Source: Methanoculleus taiwanensis (GTDB lineage Archaea > Halobacteriota > Methanomicrobia > Methanomicrobiales > Methanoculleaceae). Taken from it: DNA of 64,000 nt. This document shows positions 11,297 through 17,674 of this stretch, piece by piece. The stretch spans positions 248,001 through 312,000 of the forward strand of contig NZ_LHQS01000001.1 of the NCBI RefSeq assembly GCF_004102725.1. Direction: 5' to 3'. The position numbers were made by a program, and so were the translations under genes. The notes beneath the pieces are model-generated. The model was not told where the DNA came from. It saw nothing but the letters and a program-made list of their open reading frames with translations, and ran no database searches. Every line of letters starts with the position of its first letter. Position 1 is the first letter of the stretch.

Positions 11297-14200
11297 TCAC
11301 CGTCGCCTGAACCAGAAGCCGATACTTATCGCACCGACGACACAGGCCACCAGAACGACGGGGATGAGCGGAGTACTCGTCATCGGTGTGGCAACCGCCT
11401 CCTTCGTTTCTTCCCGCATCACGTGACCGGTGACGTCCTGTGCAGCCTTCATCAGGCTTTCGGCAACTGCATCGACGGTTATTCCGACTCCCGAAGCGTC
11501 CGTGGTATTGGTGGGGGTCTGGGCATCATTCATGCCGGACGGGATGGGTGTGAACGTGGGCACCGCCGAAGATGCGGCACTGTATGACGAGGCAAGTTTG
11601 CCGGTGCTTGCGCCGCCGCCGCTGCCGGCAGGCGTCTGGGTGCCGGAGATCAGGCCCTGGATGTAGGCGTCCAGCTGGAGGTTGCCGCAGGTATGGTGAC
11701 AGCAGGTCACGCCGTGCATCTCGACCGATTGCTGCAGTTCCTGTGCAAGCGATTGCAACACCTCGGTGTCAGGATTCCAGTATCCCTTTCTGGCAGCATC
11801 CAGCATCCGGGCGGTGAGCGACTGGTATGCGTACGGGTTGTGTGTGTTGAAGAATTCTTTCAGGCCGAGGTTGTACTGATCCTCCAGGTATGTCTCGTAG
11901 ACGCTGTTCCACATCTCTTCGGTGATCAGCTCCGGCATGGCAACGTCCCAGAGCCACATGTTTTCTATGAACGCTTCCATATATCGGGCTCCGTCGAATC
12001 CCTGATCCATCATCCCCTGTATCCATTCGGGATTGAGATACCGCGAGCGGAGATCACGGCTGACAAATCGCTGGAGGGTTTCTAATTTCTGATTCTGCGC
12101 GTCCCGCTGGTTATTGATATACATATCGGGCGAGATTCCGGAGACGCTCTTTACCGCCAGGTTCAGGCCGCCGAAGTAGGCGGCAACCATCGGGTGCTCC
12201 AGCGTCCCGTAGACGTTGGACGTTCTGGAGAAGACGGCGGCATCCACGCCGCCCAGGTTTGCACGGAAGACGTCGGCATACTGTTCTCCCCAGATCGTGC
12301 TCCCGTAGATGTATCCCATCCGGCTGATGTAGAGCTCGGCAATGGCGTCGGTATCGGTCCAGGTGTCGCTGGCTCCGATGGCGTGCTCTATGCCGGGAGT
12401 ATACGAGTCCGGCGGTGGGCAGAAGATGCGTGAGGCTGCAAGCTCCCATGCCGTCTCCTCGTCGTAGCCTGCGCCGATGAGGTCTCGGTAGATCGCCTCG
12501 GTATGTTCGCGTACGTAATTCGGCGTATCGCCGTCGTCGGCAGCGGCGGCAAGTCGCACCGCTCTGTCGATCAGGAGTAATTTGCCGGCGTACATGTCCC
12601 TGTATGAGCCCGACGTGACGACGAGCACATCGATACGGGGACGGCCGAGCTCTGCGGACGGGATCAATTCCACATCATCCACCCGGCCGTATTTGTTCCA
12701 GACGGGTTTCACACCGAGGAGATAGAGGATTTCCGCCTCCATGGTTCCCTGGTGGCGTGACGTCTCGATCGACCAGAGCAGGAACGCGACCTTGTCGGGG
12801 TAGGTTCCGTGTGATGCGATATGCGCTGCGAGCAGGTCATCCCCGAGCGTCCGCCCGACCGTCCAGGCAGCCTCTGTGGGAATAATCCGGTCGTCGAAAG
12901 TGCAGAGATTCCTGCCTGTCGGGAGCGCATCCGGGTTGCGCACCGGGTCGCCGTTCGGACCCGGCGGGATGTAGCGTGCCTCAAGAGCGTCAAGAATGCG
13001 GGGGATCTCGATACTGCAGGCGTCGATCCGGCTTTTATAGTCCAGTGCCAGGTTCAGGTCGGTGGTGATCTCCGCAGAAGTGCCGCCCAGAAATACCGTC
13101 TGTGCGTCGACCGGAGATGTACCATTCAGTATCACTGCGGCAAGGAGTGCGAGGTGGGTTTCCTCGCTGCCGCCGGTTGCAGCGACGTGGTCGGCGAACG
13201 AGCTGCCCAGCATACCGTCTATCATGGCGACGAGCTCGTCGCCGGCAGGAACTTCGCTGAGTGTGTGTGAGCCGTAGGGCATGAATGTGGTCTTCAGTTC
13301 TGTTAAATAATCATCCAGATCGTCGACGAAGGCATCAAACGCAGCATCATCGCCTTCCAGCGCCCCGGGATCGACGCCGAGATCGGTATCGAGATCGAGC
13401 TCCCTGACGGTGGCGAGAATCTCGGACCTGTACTCGGCCTTTACGGCCTCGTCACCAACCGTCCGGTAATTGGTGATGGTATCGTCAAGGTCGGCGAGCG
13501 AGCCGTACAGACCGGAGGGAACGATGGTCGGGGTCATGAAGTCGACGATCGCCATGTTTGCGCGGCGCCGATCAAACATCCCTTCCGCGTCCATTGGAAG
13601 CACGTGGACGTGCGGCATATCGCCCATCAGCAGGGCTCCCCAGTCATCGGCGGCAAGCCCCGACTCTTTTCCGGGCATCATCTCGATGCTGCTGAAGATG
13701 GAGAAGATAGCGTCGGCCTGGTATATGCGATCCATGTAATAGTAGAAGGCCAGACACTGGTGTGTCGGCGGGATCGATCCGTCGTGGTACATCACGTCGG
13801 TGTCCTGATTCCAGCCCCACATCGGATCCGGCACGAGCAGGACGTTGCCGAACTGGATCGTCGGGATGACGAGGGAGCGTGCTCCTCCGTTTTCGTAGAC
13901 CATGATCTCGCCGGGGGCCTCCCCCCAGATCTCGTTCATCTCCTGACGCTTTGCAGCGGGCAGCTCGTTGAACCAGGCGAGATACTGGTCTTCAGGGATC
14001 AGAATGACGTCACCGGCCTCAACGCGGCGGTTCAGTTCTTCCTGTGCCCAGGTTCCGATGTTGTAACCCTGTGTCGCCATCAGATCGGCAAGTTCGTCCT
14101 CATCGGGGAGCGGCCCGGTGCCTAGGTCGTATCCCCGTTCCTGCATCGCTTTGAGCAGATTGGCAAGGCTTGCCTGTGCGTTGAGGTAATAATCGATGTC

Positions 14201-15832
14201 GGCGCCCACGGTAGCCCTGCCGCCCTCTGCACTGTAGTAGGGGACGACAATCTTTTTCTCCGCATTGGAGGTGCAATGCAGGTTCATCCAGCCGAGGGTG
14301 CGTTCCGTCAGCCATGTCACCTGGTCGTCGAACGGTTTGTAATAGAGCTCGGCCGTGACGGGATCGGGCTCTTTGCCTGCGATGACGATGGGCTCGATGA
14401 CTCCGTCGAGCTCGGCCATAACCAGCTGGTATGCCTGCTCAGGCCCGACACCGTGCGGGCTGTTTCTCCAGGTCGACTCATTGACGTCGTAGAAGAGCCT
14501 GACGGCGTTGAGTACGGGAACGTTGAGGTGCTGCAGGTTTTCGATCCCCCGGTCGGGGTCGGAGTAGTCAAGCCGGGATCCCTTCGAGATGAGCACGGCG
14601 GTATCGATGAGCACCTCTCCGTTATTCAGGAAATAACCGATTCTTACCGGGTCTTTGTAGTGGTAGGTGGCTACGATGACATTGACGCCTTCGCTCTCGA
14701 ATGAACGGACCAGAGCGTCGGTCATAGGCCCGTCCCTTTCCATATACTTGTAGTCGCCGGTGATGATGCCCACAGTCGGCCGTGCCGGGTTGTAGACACC
14801 AGAAGCGGCATACCAGCTCAGGTACTCCGCCGACGTGGCGAATATATTGGGTGCGTCCGGGTGGTATATGCCGTACACCGGCCGCTCTTCGGGCGGCGCC
14901 GTATCCGCCGTACTATTGCAGTAAGTGACCCCGATGAAGCGTGCAAGGTTGTCGAAGTTCGTGTTTGAGGGGTATTCCAGGTATGCTGCGATCTCTATCG
15001 CGGCCGGGTCGGCCGGGTCGACGGTATGCAGGTTGTAGCTCTGCACGAGCGGCCCGCAGGCGAGAATAACGCTTCCGTTAGCCCTCGCGTCCTGTACGGT
15101 ATCGCTGATGGCCTCGATGACCGGCGCATCCAGGTTTGAAAGGAGGATGACGTCGTTTCCGTCGAGACTGAAGGAGAGATCTTCATTTGATCTGCCGAGA
15201 TGCACCGAGATGTCCATCATGGACCGGATTGTGGAATCTTCGGAGACCGACGTCATGCTCGAGACTTCGGATGTGCGGGAGAAGACACACGCGATCTTCG
15301 GTCTGCCGGACGGCGGAACGGGATCTGCAAGGTCGTGGTCTGCTCCGTAAATGTGGTTGTCCAGAGCAAGGAGGAACTGCTCAAGGTTCGTTTCCCCACC
15401 GTAAAGCCAGTAGTTTGTGAGGACTTCGTCCGCGGGGGTACCGAAGGCGGTGCCTTCGGGAAGGTCGTATGTGATGGCCGTAGCATTCGGGCAGAGCGTA
15501 CCGTTGATGTGGTCGACGGTTGCATTGCCGATGGATGCGACAAAAAGCGCCGTTTCGTCGGTGAAGTTATAGACCCCGGCCGCCGTCTCATCCATGATGG
15601 AGACGTTCAAGGTCGTGTTGATCGGTGCAGCGCACGCGGCAGCCTCGAGGGCATCCCGGTTTCTATTGTCGCCGAGGACGCAGATGAGGCTGTGTGTTTC
15701 GTTCTCTCCGATACCGGCCGCTTCTGCAGGAGAAACGAGCGGCAGGGTTGCCTGGAGCAGGAGAAGAATGAGGATCATGAGGGTGACCGCGATCACTCTC
15801 TTATAGCATTGGCTCTGTACTTCGTACTGCAT
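11297..15832 (-). CDS. Extracytoplasmic, membrane-anchored CobN/BchH-like chelatase subunit
   Basis: A 1,511-residue homologue of the large subunit of cobalto- or magnesium-chelatases (CobN/ChlH). The start at 15832 follows an AAGGTG ribosome site; an in-frame ATG at 15880 lacks one. An N-terminal hydrophobic segment (VIAVTLMILILLLLQATLPL) ending in AEAAG looks like a signal peptide. The CobN domain fills most of the protein. Near the C-terminus are a CCHHTCGN cluster (11681-11704), a Ser/Thr/Pro-rich linker and a final helix ending FRRR. The chelatase body should therefore face outside, unlike cytosolic CobN, and no CobS/CobT ATPases are nearby. It follows the DUF2162, ExbB-like and DUF2149 genes on the same strand, 176 bases after the last. 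The order resembles Bacteroidetes hmuSTUV haem loci. Substrate unknown. Confidence 0.85.
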   Translation of the reverse strand: MQYEVQSQCYKRVIAVTLMILILLLLQATLPLVSPAEAAGIGENETHSLICVLGDNRNRDALEAAACAAPINTTLNVSIMDETAAGVYNFTDETALFVASIGNATVDHINGTLCPNATAITYDLPEGTAFGTPADEVLTNYWLYGGETNLEQFLLALDNHIYGADHDLADPVPPSGRPKIACVFSRTSEVSSMTSVSEDSTIRSMMDISVHLGRSNEDLSFSLDGNDVILLSNLDAPVIEAISDTVQDARANGSVILACGPLVQSYNLHTVDPADPAAIEIAAYLEYPSNTNFDNLARFIGVTYCNSTADTAPPEERPVYGIYHPDAPNIFATSAEYLSWYAASGVYNPARPTVGIITGDYKYMERDGPMTDALVRSFESEGVNVIVATYHYKDPVRIGYFLNNGEVLIDTAVLISKGSRLDYSDPDRGIENLQHLNVPVLNAVRLFYDVNESTWRNSPHGVGPEQAYQLVMAELDGVIEPIVIAGKEPDPVTAELYYKPFDDQVTWLTERTLGWMNLHCTSNAEKKIVVPYYSAEGGRATVGADIDYYLNAQASLANLLKAMQERGYDLGTGPLPDEDELADLMATQGYNIGTWAQEELNRRVEAGDVILIPEDQYLAWFNELPAAKRQEMNEIWGEAPGEIMVYENGGARSLVIPTIQFGNVLLVPDPMWGWNQDTDVMYHDGSIPPTHQCLAFYYYMDRIYQADAIFSIFSSIEMMPGKESGLAADDWGALLMGDMPHVHVLPMDAEGMFDRRRANMAIVDFMTPTIVPSGLYGSLADLDDTITNYRTVGDEAVKAEYRSEILATVRELDLDTDLGVDPGALEGDDAAFDAFVDDLDDYLTELKTTFMPYGSHTLSEVPAGDELVAMIDGMLGSSFADHVAATGGSEETHLALLAAVILNGTSPVDAQTVFLGGTSAEITTDLNLALDYKSRIDACSIEIPRILDALEARYIPPGPNGDPVRNPDALPTGRNLCTFDDRIIPTEAAWTVGRTLGDDLLAAHIASHGTYPDKVAFLLWSIETSRHQGTMEAEILYLLGVKPVWNKYGRVDDVELIPSAELGRPRIDVLVVTSGSYRDMYAGKLLLIDRAVRLAAAADDGDTPNYVREHTEAIYRDLIGAGYDEETAWELAASRIFCPPPDSYTPGIEHAIGASDTWTDTDAIAELYISRMGYIYGSTIWGEQYADVFRANLGGVDAAVFSRTSNVYGTLEHPMVAAYFGGLNLAVKSVSGISPDMYINNQRDAQNQKLETLQRFVSRDLRSRYLNPEWIQGMMDQGFDGARYMEAFIENMWLWDVAMPELITEEMWNSVYETYLEDQYNLGLKEFFNTHNPYAYQSLTARMLDAARKGYWNPDTEVLQSLAQELQQSVEMHGVTCCHHTCGNLQLDAYIQGLISGTQTPAGSGGGASTGKLASSYSAASSAVPTFTPIPSGMNDAQTPTNTTDASGVGITVDAVAESLMKAAQDVTGHVMREETKEAVATPMTSTPLIPVVLVACVVGAISIGFWFRRR

Positions 15833-15900
15833 ATCTGACACCTTCAGGTATGACGTGAGGTCCCCGTCGCCAGCTTCCAACTACGAAGGGGGCCTCTAAC

Positions 15901-15960
15901 GCAAATTTATTTTATCTAAATCTGTTTTGCTTGATTATAAAATAACGTTTCGGAATAGCG
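15901..15960 (-). promoter_or_regulatory. AT-rich interval, possible separate promoter for the CobN-like gene
   Basis: The 176-base gap between the DUF2149 and CobN-like genes contains an AT-rich block (caaatttattttatctaaat and a run of attataaaataa) that stands out from the GC-rich surroundings. On the minus strand this gives TATA-like elements 70-120 bases ahead of the CobN-like start. It could add a second promoter inside the cluster or be a spacer. Confidence 0.35.
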
Positions 15961-16008
15961 TCCGAACCGTATCTGACTGAATTCTGCACTGATACGGGAA
16001 AAGAGGGG

Positions 16009-16344
16009 TTATGGAGAGAGATCATCCGGAACATAAATGACTTCGCCGGTATCCAGGCGGTAAGCCGTTCCCATCTTGCTGCCCTGGCCGCCAGCGAGCT
16101 CTTCGGTCATGTTCAGCACTTTAATGGTCTTTCCTTCCTTGACGATGATCTGCATGTTTGGCTGTCCCGGATTTTTCACGATCGTGAGATCGGCCTCGTC
16201 GTCGAGCATCTCGGGTACGTTGTAGGAGACGACGAGTGCGACCAGCAGGGCGACGGCAAAGACCATGGCGACGTCAAAGAGGTTGGCGACACCGGCAAGG
16301 GGGTCTTCGTCTTCGTCGTCGAGGATGATGCGCCGTCTCTTCAT
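16009..16344 (-). CDS. DUF2149 protein, ExbD-like
   Basis: A 111-residue protein with an acidic N-terminus after an RRR triplet, one transmembrane helix (about 22-43) and a small soluble C-terminal domain. The helix begins LFDVAMVFAVALLVAL with Asp24. This matches the layout of ExbD/TolR, whose single helix carries the essential Asp (Asp25 in E. coli ExbD) in a comparable FIDVMLVLL context. The ATG overlaps the stop of the ExbB-like gene (ATGA), so the two are coupled. I infer that the pair forms a proton- or sodium-driven channel. The family name DUF2149 is from recognition; the ExbD role is inference. Confidence 0.8.
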   Translation of the reverse strand: MKRRRIILDDEDEDPLAGVANLFDVAMVFAVALLVALVVSYNVPEMLDDEADLTIVKNPGQPNMQIIVKEGKTIKVLNMTEELAGGQGSKMGTAYRLDTGEVIYVPDDLSP

Positions 16345-16958
16345 GCAATCATCCTCGCGACGTACTCCATATCGCTCAGGTCCTGTAGATACCACCGGCG
16401 CTTCGTCAGCAGGATTGCATAGGCGATACCTCCGATGAACAACCCGAGCACGGTCGTGCTGAATGCGATGACAAGATTGGATGCCAGTGCTTCGATATTC
16501 CCTGCAGAAAGCCCCATCAGCGCAGGGCCGAGTGGTATCAGGGTTCCCATAAGCCCGAGCATGGGGGCGGTCCGCGTCAGGATCTTCAGCCGTTCGAGTT
16601 CGGCCGAGATGCGGATCTCGTAGTCCTGGAGAAGTTTTTCGGACTCGACCGAGAACCGATCGCTGCCGAAGAGCTTCGTCAGATCGCCGAGGAACGATCC
16701 GAGGAGCGGGTTCGATCCCGATGCCGTCAGCACCCCGGCGGCATCATCATAGGAACGCTGCTCAAGCAGCGAAACGGACTGCTTGCAGCCATTTCTGAGC
16801 TGTTCGAGATTCCTGCTTCTTCCGGCGTACTCGGAGATGAACTGGCCGAAGGCCATCAGTGTCCAGACAACAAGTGCGAGGAGCGCGAGGATTGCAGGAT
16901 AGAGAAGCGCCCCGGATATGATGAACATTGTCTCCATGAGTGATGTTGGTACGTCCAT
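16341..16958 (-). CDS. MotA/TolQ/ExbB-family proton channel protein
   Basis: A 205-residue membrane protein. The start at 16958 has a GGAGG ribosome site seven bases upstream and overlaps the DUF2162 stop by one base (TAATG). Helix 1 spans about residues 14-36. A cytoplasmic helical region follows, then the MotA/TolQ/ExbB signature ILTRTAPMLGLMGTLIPLGP and LVIAFSTTVLGLFIGGIAYAI, forming helices 2 and 3. ExbB pentamers surround an ExbD dimer and convert ion flow to mechanical work. Here the ExbD-like partner is the next gene. There is no TonB homologue in the window, and an archaeon without an outer membrane should not need one, so the driven partner is probably the CobN-like protein. Confidence 0.88.
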   Translation of the reverse strand: MDVPTSLMETMFIISGALLYPAILALLALVVWTLMAFGQFISEYAGRSRNLEQLRNGCKQSVSLLEQRSYDDAAGVLTASGSNPLLGSFLGDLTKLFGSDRFSVESEKLLQDYEIRISAELERLKILTRTAPMLGLMGTLIPLGPALMGLSAGNIEALASNLVIAFSTTVLGLFIGGIAYAILLTKRRWYLQDLSDMEYVARMIA

Positions 16959-17674
16959 TATCTGCCTCCATAGTTTGCTGGATGTCGGATTCTGTCGATG
17001 AGTATCCCGAGCAGTATCAGTGCCGCCATCAGACCGAACGCGAGGAGCATGCCGGGCGAATCGGCTGTGATGCTGAACGCCGGTGCATTCTGCGCCTGCA
17101 GGTAGGCAGGAACGACGAGGGGGCAGAGCAGATAGAAGAGGCCGAGAAACAGCATGACATTCCCCAGTGTGGATGGGTTCTTCACCCCGGTCCTGGCCGC
17201 AATCCAGCTGATGCCTGCCGAGCCTCCTGCAATGCCTGCAAAGAGCATGCCTCCGATGACGGCGCCCGCCGCAATCCCGCTTATGCCGGTGGTATCGGTG
17301 AGAATCAGGCACGAGAGAAATGTTGCCGCAAGACATGCCGGACAGGGGAGTGACAGCAGAAGGAATGTACGGCGTGAGATATCTTTTCGATCGGACAGCC
17401 ACTGTTGCTTCGTTCTGATCCCGAAATAGACGAGCGCCATTCCGATGATGAGGTGCATAACGAGTCCGAGCCCGATGACCTGTTCGGTGAGATCCAGTGG
17501 GATAACGCCGACGACTGCCCCGGTGATGAACGCCGTCAGAGCGTATACGGATGCGAAGCAGAGCATCTCCCGGAACCGCAAATCCGAAAGCCCGCATCCG
17601 ATCCCGGTCTTCACTGCCAGGAGAGCGATGCCGGCAAGGGTACCGGCAGCGAGGAAGTCGGCGAGGTTACTCAT
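16958..17674 (-). CDS. DUF2162 polytopic membrane protein with CPAC motif
   Basis: A 238-residue protein with about six or seven transmembrane helices, which I recognise as the methanogen DUF2162 family of predicted transporters. The loop and helix around residues 101-125 read RRTFLLLSLPCPACLAATFL. The CPAC motif (111-114) at the start of a helix resembles the redox-active Cys pair of CcdA/DsbD thiol-electron transporters. It is the first gene of the CobN-like cluster, with a box A about 30 bases before the ATG giving a nearly leaderless message. Possible roles are electron transfer to surface thiols (for example the Cys-rich end of the CobN-like protein) or metal transport. Neither is proven. 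Confidence 0.75.
   Translation of the reverse strand: MSNLADFLAAGTLAGIALLAVKTGIGCGLSDLRFREMLCFASVYALTAFITGAVVGVIPLDLTEQVIGLGLVMHLIIGMALVYFGIRTKQQWLSDRKDISRRTFLLLSLPCPACLAATFLSCLILTDTTGISGIAAGAVIGGMLFAGIAGGSAGISWIAARTGVKNPSTLGNVMLFLGLFYLLCPLVVPAYLQAQNAPAFSITADSPGMLLAFGLMAALILLGILIDRIRHPANYGGR

Follow-up and report, generated by a model that had tools for sequence, protein, structure and literature searches.

HmuS is a haem dechelatase that converts haem to protoporphyrin IX in an NADH-dependent manner. In the hmuYRSTUV operon of Bacteroidota, HmuU belongs to the MotA/TolQ/ExbB family and HmuV to DUF2149 (PMC10434189), family identities that are directly visible in Bacteroides, Prevotella and Aureibacter loci (L113–L115) found, like all bacterial loci examined here, in plasmid records. 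The published scheme assigns HmuU and HmuV to the outer-membrane receptor. According to the 2025 HmuS paper, archaea have no complete hmu operons and the role of archaeal CobN homologues is unclear (PMC12583661). Two further groups of systems bear on the comparison. The CobNST cobaltochelatase and the ChlHDI Mg chelatase have large subunits of related fold but are cytosolic, are driven by ATP via AAA+ partners and keep the catalytic histidine. The ExbB–ExbD, TolQ–TolR and MotA–MotB pairs join an ExbB-family channel to a one-helix protein with an acidic residue in the helix. A plasmid locus of Trichlorobacter lovleyi (pSZ77/pGLOV01) has the same four families as those described below in the same order (DUF2162–ExbB–DUF2149–CobN) and in a cobalamin context. 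Its 2012 genome paper called the role of CobN unknown (PMC3403914).

The window analysed here, a stretch of 64,000 nucleotides from the archaeon Methanoculleus taiwanensis, contains a four-gene set (Table 1) for which the earlier note had proposed a kinship with Bacteroidota hmuS, hmuU and hmuV. This kinship is borne out by the family identities of HmuU and HmuV and by the best PDB match of the CobN-like protein, which is HmuS (9d26, E 3e-143). The two proteins share the CobN/ChlH fold and have a membrane segment at each terminus, and in both systems a CobN-superfamily gene accompanies genes for ExbB-family, DUF2149 and small membrane proteins (B. fragilis: BtuS1/2). Unlike the hmu operon, however, the window has neither HmuY nor HmuR in the region read (7–23 kb of the window), and DUF2162 takes the place of HmuT. 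The CobN-like protein, in turn, has lost the HFG[TA]HG motif of HmuS that contains H538, and the Met-rich insertion of HmuS domain IV is missing from it (three Met in residues 801–900 and none in 901–1000). Judged by sequence, the window protein is not an HmuS by membership, and the module is an HmuSTUV-like variant.

Organization of the four-gene set

Table 1. Features of the gene set in the window.
Feature	Position	Strand	Evidence
DUF2162 membrane protein (238 aa), the module's 'permease slot'	16958..17674	-	Pfam PF09930, 168 bits
ExbB/TolQ/MotA-family channel protein (205 aa)	16341..16958	-	Pfam PF01618, 41 bits, 2e-10
DUF2149 protein (111 aa)	16009..16344	-	Pfam PF09919, 122 bits
DUF2149–CobN gap with conserved AT-rich, promoter-like block	15833..16008	-	Alignment of relatives
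CobN/HmuS/ChlH-superfamily protein, CobN-Mg_chel	about 11297..15832	-	PF02514, 1045 bits, single continuous frame
N-terminal signal/anchor hydrophobic segment VIAVTLMILILLLLQATLP	15740..15796	-	Hydropathy
Remodelled catalytic segment DAIFSIFSSIEMMPGKE replacing H-F-G-T-H-G	13665..13714	-	Alignment with HmuS
F729 at the HmuS H538 position	codon 13694-13696	-	Alignment
H759, invariant in the variant clade	13604..13606	-	Alignment; HmuS Y568, Tyr in nearly all other CobN-like proteins
H1229, invariant in the variant clade	12194..12196	-	Two residues before the HmuS H1209 position
C-C-H-H-T-C-G-N motif before linker and anchor	11681..11704	-	Alignment
C-terminal transmembrane anchor LIPVVLVACVVGAISIGFW, then FRRR	11312..11368	-	Hydropathy

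The coordinates and Pfam matches agree with the earlier description of four genes on the same strand at this place, and the junctions read as had been described for the first three genes: DUF2162 and the ExbB-like gene overlap by one base (TAATG), and the ExbB-like gene and DUF2149 by four (ATGA). The overlaps are confined to these genes, and a gap of 176 bp separates DUF2149 from the ATG of the CobN-like gene, whose frame reaches back to a TTG at 15880 from which its residues are numbered. In the same gap, Methanoculleus relatives (L034, L098, L102) carry an inverted repeat, ATCAAG-N4-CTTGAT, which is imperfect in the window and is possibly an operator of the CobN-like gene.

Two absences that had been noted also hold: TonB_C has no match in the whole source genome, and no CobS/CobT or other AAA+ partner occurs in the region read (the 7–23 kb given above). 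The Mg_chelatase matches of the source genome lie away from the four-gene set. CorA, which adjoins the CobN-like gene, is the only cobalt, nickel or iron gene next to the set, and it was rejected as a part of the module because only one relative keeps it.

Conservation of the module

In an even sample of 247 archaeal genomes across the phylum, DUF2149 is present in 79 and DUF2162 in 73. For 70 of the 74 full-length DUF2162 matches, a same-strand DUF2149 gene follows 651–1206 bp (about 0.7 kb) downstream. The ExbB-like gene stands between the two in every locus read, between one and three CobN-like genes as a rule come after DUF2149, and PF02514 is present in 77 of the 79 genomes with DUF2149. 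Methanosarcina acetivorans, which served as a control, contains homologues of DUF2149, DUF2162 and CobN. The association of the gene set is far from chance and the four genes are functionally linked, which substantiates the proposal of a neighbourhood conserved in other methanogens. Within the window's own family (40 genomes), DUF2149 occurs in eight, each time with an adjoining CobN-like gene. Six of these loci are of the variant type described below, and the other two (G003 and G273) fall outside the variant pattern, G003 being read as canonical. The same slot is thus filled by either CobN type within one family.

Several loci depart from the common layout. Two or three CobN paralogues come after a single DUF2162–ExbB–DUF2149 motor in L051, L053, L057, L064, L071 and L073, and these paralogues differ in their active-site motif (NMGRHG, HLGTHG, HFGTHG, FTIF), an arrangement that we read as one motor with several cargo subunits. 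At L035:14178–15461, DUF2149 and the CobN gene are separated by an open frame on the opposite strand that looks like an IS110-type transposase. DUF2162 is fused to an N-terminal TPR-like extension in two ANME-1-family loci (L090:1570–2775 and L092:8722–9960), and the incomplete genome G230 contains DUF2149 without any CobN match.

Putative motor proteins and the permease place

The profile of the ExbB-like protein matches solved TolQ (2e-4) and ExbB (1e-3), in keeping with its proposed role as an ion-channel energizer, and GLMGTLIPxGPA is invariant in its alignment. DUF2149 consists of a single transmembrane helix (residues 15–41 in a low-confidence model) and a small extracytoplasmic domain. 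D24 of this helix is invariant in 31 archaeal homologues, and the bacterial homologues have Asp, or Glu in Runella, at its position. DUF2149 is 57% identical to the Bacteroides DUF2149 protein and, HmuV being a DUF2149 protein, its suggested relation to HmuV stands. Its relation to ExbD is of a different kind: neither an HMMER profile search nor Foldseek with a poor model (pLDDT 65) returned a significant match. DUF2149 is a family of its own that appears ExbD-like by position and by the acid of its one helix, and the window differs from the ExbB–ExbD, TolQ–TolR and MotA–MotB systems in having no TonB, TolA or flagellum.

Among 33 homologues of DUF2162, K22, P110-C-P and C114 are invariant and C27, H74 and C122 are nearly so; of the cysteines, therefore, C111 and C114 are invariant and C27 and C122 nearly invariant. 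The AF2 model (pLDDT 85.5) contains eight helices and displays no recognized transporter fold, with no significant Foldseek match in the PDB. The CcdA-like character that the earlier note had ascribed to this protein is undetectable in either sequence or fold, as no HMMER profile, Pfam family or fold match to CcdA/DsbD was found. Its presumed similarity to HmuT fared no better: Bacteroides HmuT is about 13% identical to DUF2162 and matches no Pfam family, so that the two have none in common. A weak VP1 match was rejected as a coincidence of membrane segments. The equivalent place is empty in Azospirillum, and in Runella it is taken by a protein whose matches to NicO and DsbD_2 are weak and do not reach the curated cut-offs. 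Taken together with HmuT and DUF2162, these differences show that the permease place varies while ExbB, DUF2149 and CobN remain constant.

A CobN-like protein predicted to be anchored outside the cell

The CobN-like protein has hydrophobic segments near both termini, with RRR after the C-terminal segment, and its body should consequently be outside the cell, as the earlier note had it. Such secretion and anchor signals occur in 64 of 68 rows of the alignment, three of the exceptions being truncated, masked or the cytosolic paralogue. Ahead of the linker and anchor, a CCHHxC motif is present in every one of the 65 archaeal module CobN rows long enough to show it. This motif is absent from the cytosolic CobN of the source genome, from CobN and from ChlH, and HmuS has a CxxxxC (SCSGFVC) at its position. 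As a DNA pattern, CCHHxC occurs in 61 of the 247 genomes, 60 of which have DUF2149, compared with none for the reversed control. Metal or thiol might be handed over between CCHHxC and the cysteines of DUF2162.

The NCBIfam and Pfam names of the protein, and its fold (E about 1e-98 to 1e-114 to the large subunits of the CobNST and ChlHDI chelatases), would suit a biosynthetic cobaltochelatase acting in late cobalt insertion. Such an enzyme would hardly be secreted and anchored, and the window protein falls short of every CobN equivalog cut-off (best 1171 bits compared to a cut-off of 1619), has no CobS/CobT nearby and has lost the catalytic histidine. Furthermore, the source genome encodes CbiX, which makes CobN unneeded for cobalt insertion. 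We consider this function most improbable.

A CobN clade without the catalytic histidine

The motif H-x-G-x-H-G is common to HmuS, CobN and ChlH, and the H538A replacement in HmuS abolishes haem turnover and dechelation (PMC12583661). The corresponding segment of the window protein, ADA-IFSIFSSIEMMPGKE, is two residues shorter, and its catalytic position is occupied by Phe. Among 86 aligned archaeal CobN-like proteins (24 variants and 62 others), all 24 variants have Phe there and 61 of the others have His. Nearly fifty positions, H759 and H1229 included, are fixed or nearly fixed in the variants and rare elsewhere. Where HmuS has LSLDHxxEFMGG with H1209, the window protein has TLEHPMVAAYFGG; retention of H1209 was considered and rejected, as the His lies two residues earlier and position 1209 is occupied by Met, which is found there in 20 of the 24 variants. 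HmuS E577, which is E766 in the window protein, is kept in all of them.

The variants form one clade, nested near ANME-1 proteins, with a support of 100 when the motif columns are removed. A scan of the genomes of 84,980 species with an exact pattern, which misses diverged members, found the variant in 18 records, all of methanogens or ANME archaea. Compared with Methanoculleus relatives, the variant has a dN/dS of about 0.17–0.19 and is under purifying selection; this ratio, the intact frame and the occurrence of the change in 24 sequences led us to reject decay or sequencing error as the cause of motif loss. The single-contig genome G131 has no PF02514 protein other than the variant, which is located with the module there and must therefore do more than assist a canonical CobN. 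An ANME-1-family CobN that is sister to the variant clade (L075:5019–9644) is also devoid of the catalytic His (VVHLGESPFPA), and this His may have been lost before the Phe form arose.

The replacement of the residue essential in HmuS by Phe, in a shortened motif and throughout the clade, undermines the proposal that the window protein removes or inserts tetrapyrrole metal by known chemistry. Given the missing H538-type site and the appearance of two invariant histidines, the variant most likely differs from HmuS in how it binds or delivers its ligand, and it probably has a novel way of handling a metal-ring compound. The main rival to binding or delivery without H538 chemistry is a rewired dechelatase, in which an external tetrapyrrole would still be demetallated and H759, H1229 and E766 would replace H538 and H1209. 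The invariance of H759 and H1229 in two cavity segments, the retention of the E577 residue and the purifying selection are all consistent with this possibility. The H-x-G-x-H-G motif is, however, deleted and not shifted, the cavity-facing orientation of H759 and H1229 is putative, and H538A abolishes dechelation in HmuS; we regard a rewired dechelatase as possible but rather doubtful. Having lost the catalytic His, the clade offers a natural test of the role of this residue.

Genomic context and the likely cargo

Corrin genes or CbiM/CbiQ adjoin the module in 9 of 14 ANME-1-family loci (f10), where several modules run directly into CbiT-CbiL-CbiF-CbiG. One further locus, L083, has a CbiA-like gene, and corrin or cobalt genes are missing from all the others. 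CbiA- and CobQ-like genes come directly after the variant itself in L066. The T. lovleyi module lies between cobalamin clusters and CbiMNQO, and T. lovleyi has its own CbiX. Nickel contexts are found in Runella, where the module is inside hypABF...hypCDE, and in Azospirillum, where it is beside NikR. Judging from the contexts of L112, L116 and L118, the module seems to be general for metal acquisition and not restricted to haem.

Iron is represented by Feo or DtxR genes near 5 of 60 archaeal loci. With HmuS as the closest solved relative, and with two M. barkeri BtuS proteins that respond to and rise with the iron source (PMC10846266, which makes no link to the module), these genes would be compatible with plain haem-iron acquisition by an archaeal hmu system. 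Such a system would have to work without HmuY and HmuR and without the catalytic His pair. Its haem site 1 may also differ, Met79 and His254 of HmuS being Leu and Lys in a pairwise alignment that is weak in the head domain and in which H254 is placed differently from the multiple alignment. Moreover, the ANME-1 kin of the variant clade are located with corrin genes, and M. marburgensis CobN1, whose membership in the module is putative as the paper does not tie it to the module, reaches high levels only when Ni is limiting (PMC12350162). Haem-iron acquisition is thus unlikely in our view. The contexts of modules elsewhere speak for cobalt or corrinoids and for nickel no less than for haem iron, and a first guess for the cargo in the window would be cobalt or a corrinoid, or a nickel tetrapyrrole, with haem iron less likely.

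The loss of the catalytic motif and the many paralogues per motor in Methanosarcina-family loci could also be accommodated by an ion motor that serves some other envelope process, the CobN-like body being a tetrapyrrole sensor or scaffold. The metal and corrin contexts in unrelated lineages and the conservation of CCHHxC and of the cavity residues are at odds with this role, which we hold to be very unlikely.

Model of the module

With somewhat better than even confidence, we propose that the four proteins would form one membrane complex of the HmuSTUV kind, which is powered by an ion gradient, acts on tetrapyrrole metal outside the cytoplasm and has a rewired catalytic subunit. From gene content, topology and context, we infer complex formation, energy use, substrate and transport direction as follows. 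ExbB and DUF2149 would make up an ion-driven motor. As there is no outer membrane and no TonB, and as the CobN-like protein is the only operon-encoded extracytoplasmic partner, this motor most likely drives the CobN-like protein. The body of the latter would, by its fold and family, capture a metallo-tetrapyrrole outside the cell, and motor strokes would change its conformation. Metal or ligand would then pass via the membrane-near CCHHxC site to the cysteine-containing permease DUF2162 and be imported.

The T. lovleyi locus has a bearing on how far this model extends. Its host, in contrast to the window's, is Gram-negative and has TonB receptors, and its CobN keeps the catalytic H-x-G-x-H-G and has CCDHTC as the cysteine motif. 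Because a separate ExbB–ExbD–TonB system is also present there, the DUF2149 motor need not serve outer-membrane receptors. This agrees with a motor that works on the CobN-like body and suggests that HmuU and HmuV act on HmuS and not on the receptor, against the published scheme. A broader and tentative version of the model, which we think has a modest chance of being correct, would have the catalytic His lost once in a methanogen/ANME ancestor and the chelatase fold turned into an ion-driven, single-membrane importer (or insertase) of a corrinoid- or F430-type methanogen tetrapyrrole with two new His and a CCHHxC relay; the DUF2149 motor would power the CobN body in all such systems, HmuUV–HmuS included.

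The module is common in methanogens and ANME archaea and gives archaeal CobN homologues defined partners and a testable job, a candidate for which is the acquisition of scarce Co, Ni or Fe, needed for methane metabolism. Operating without an outer membrane or TonB, it is also a simpler system in which to learn what HmuU and HmuV power. The other CobN of the source genome (L111:4337–11856, G000:C2; about 1282 aa) has neither signal nor anchor, keeps HVGTHG, and contains DLDHYFEYFGG, which resembles HmuS. Its gene adjoins those of a FecCD permease, an ABC ATPase and a Peripla_BP_2 protein, and we read this group as a parallel, ATP-driven import set.
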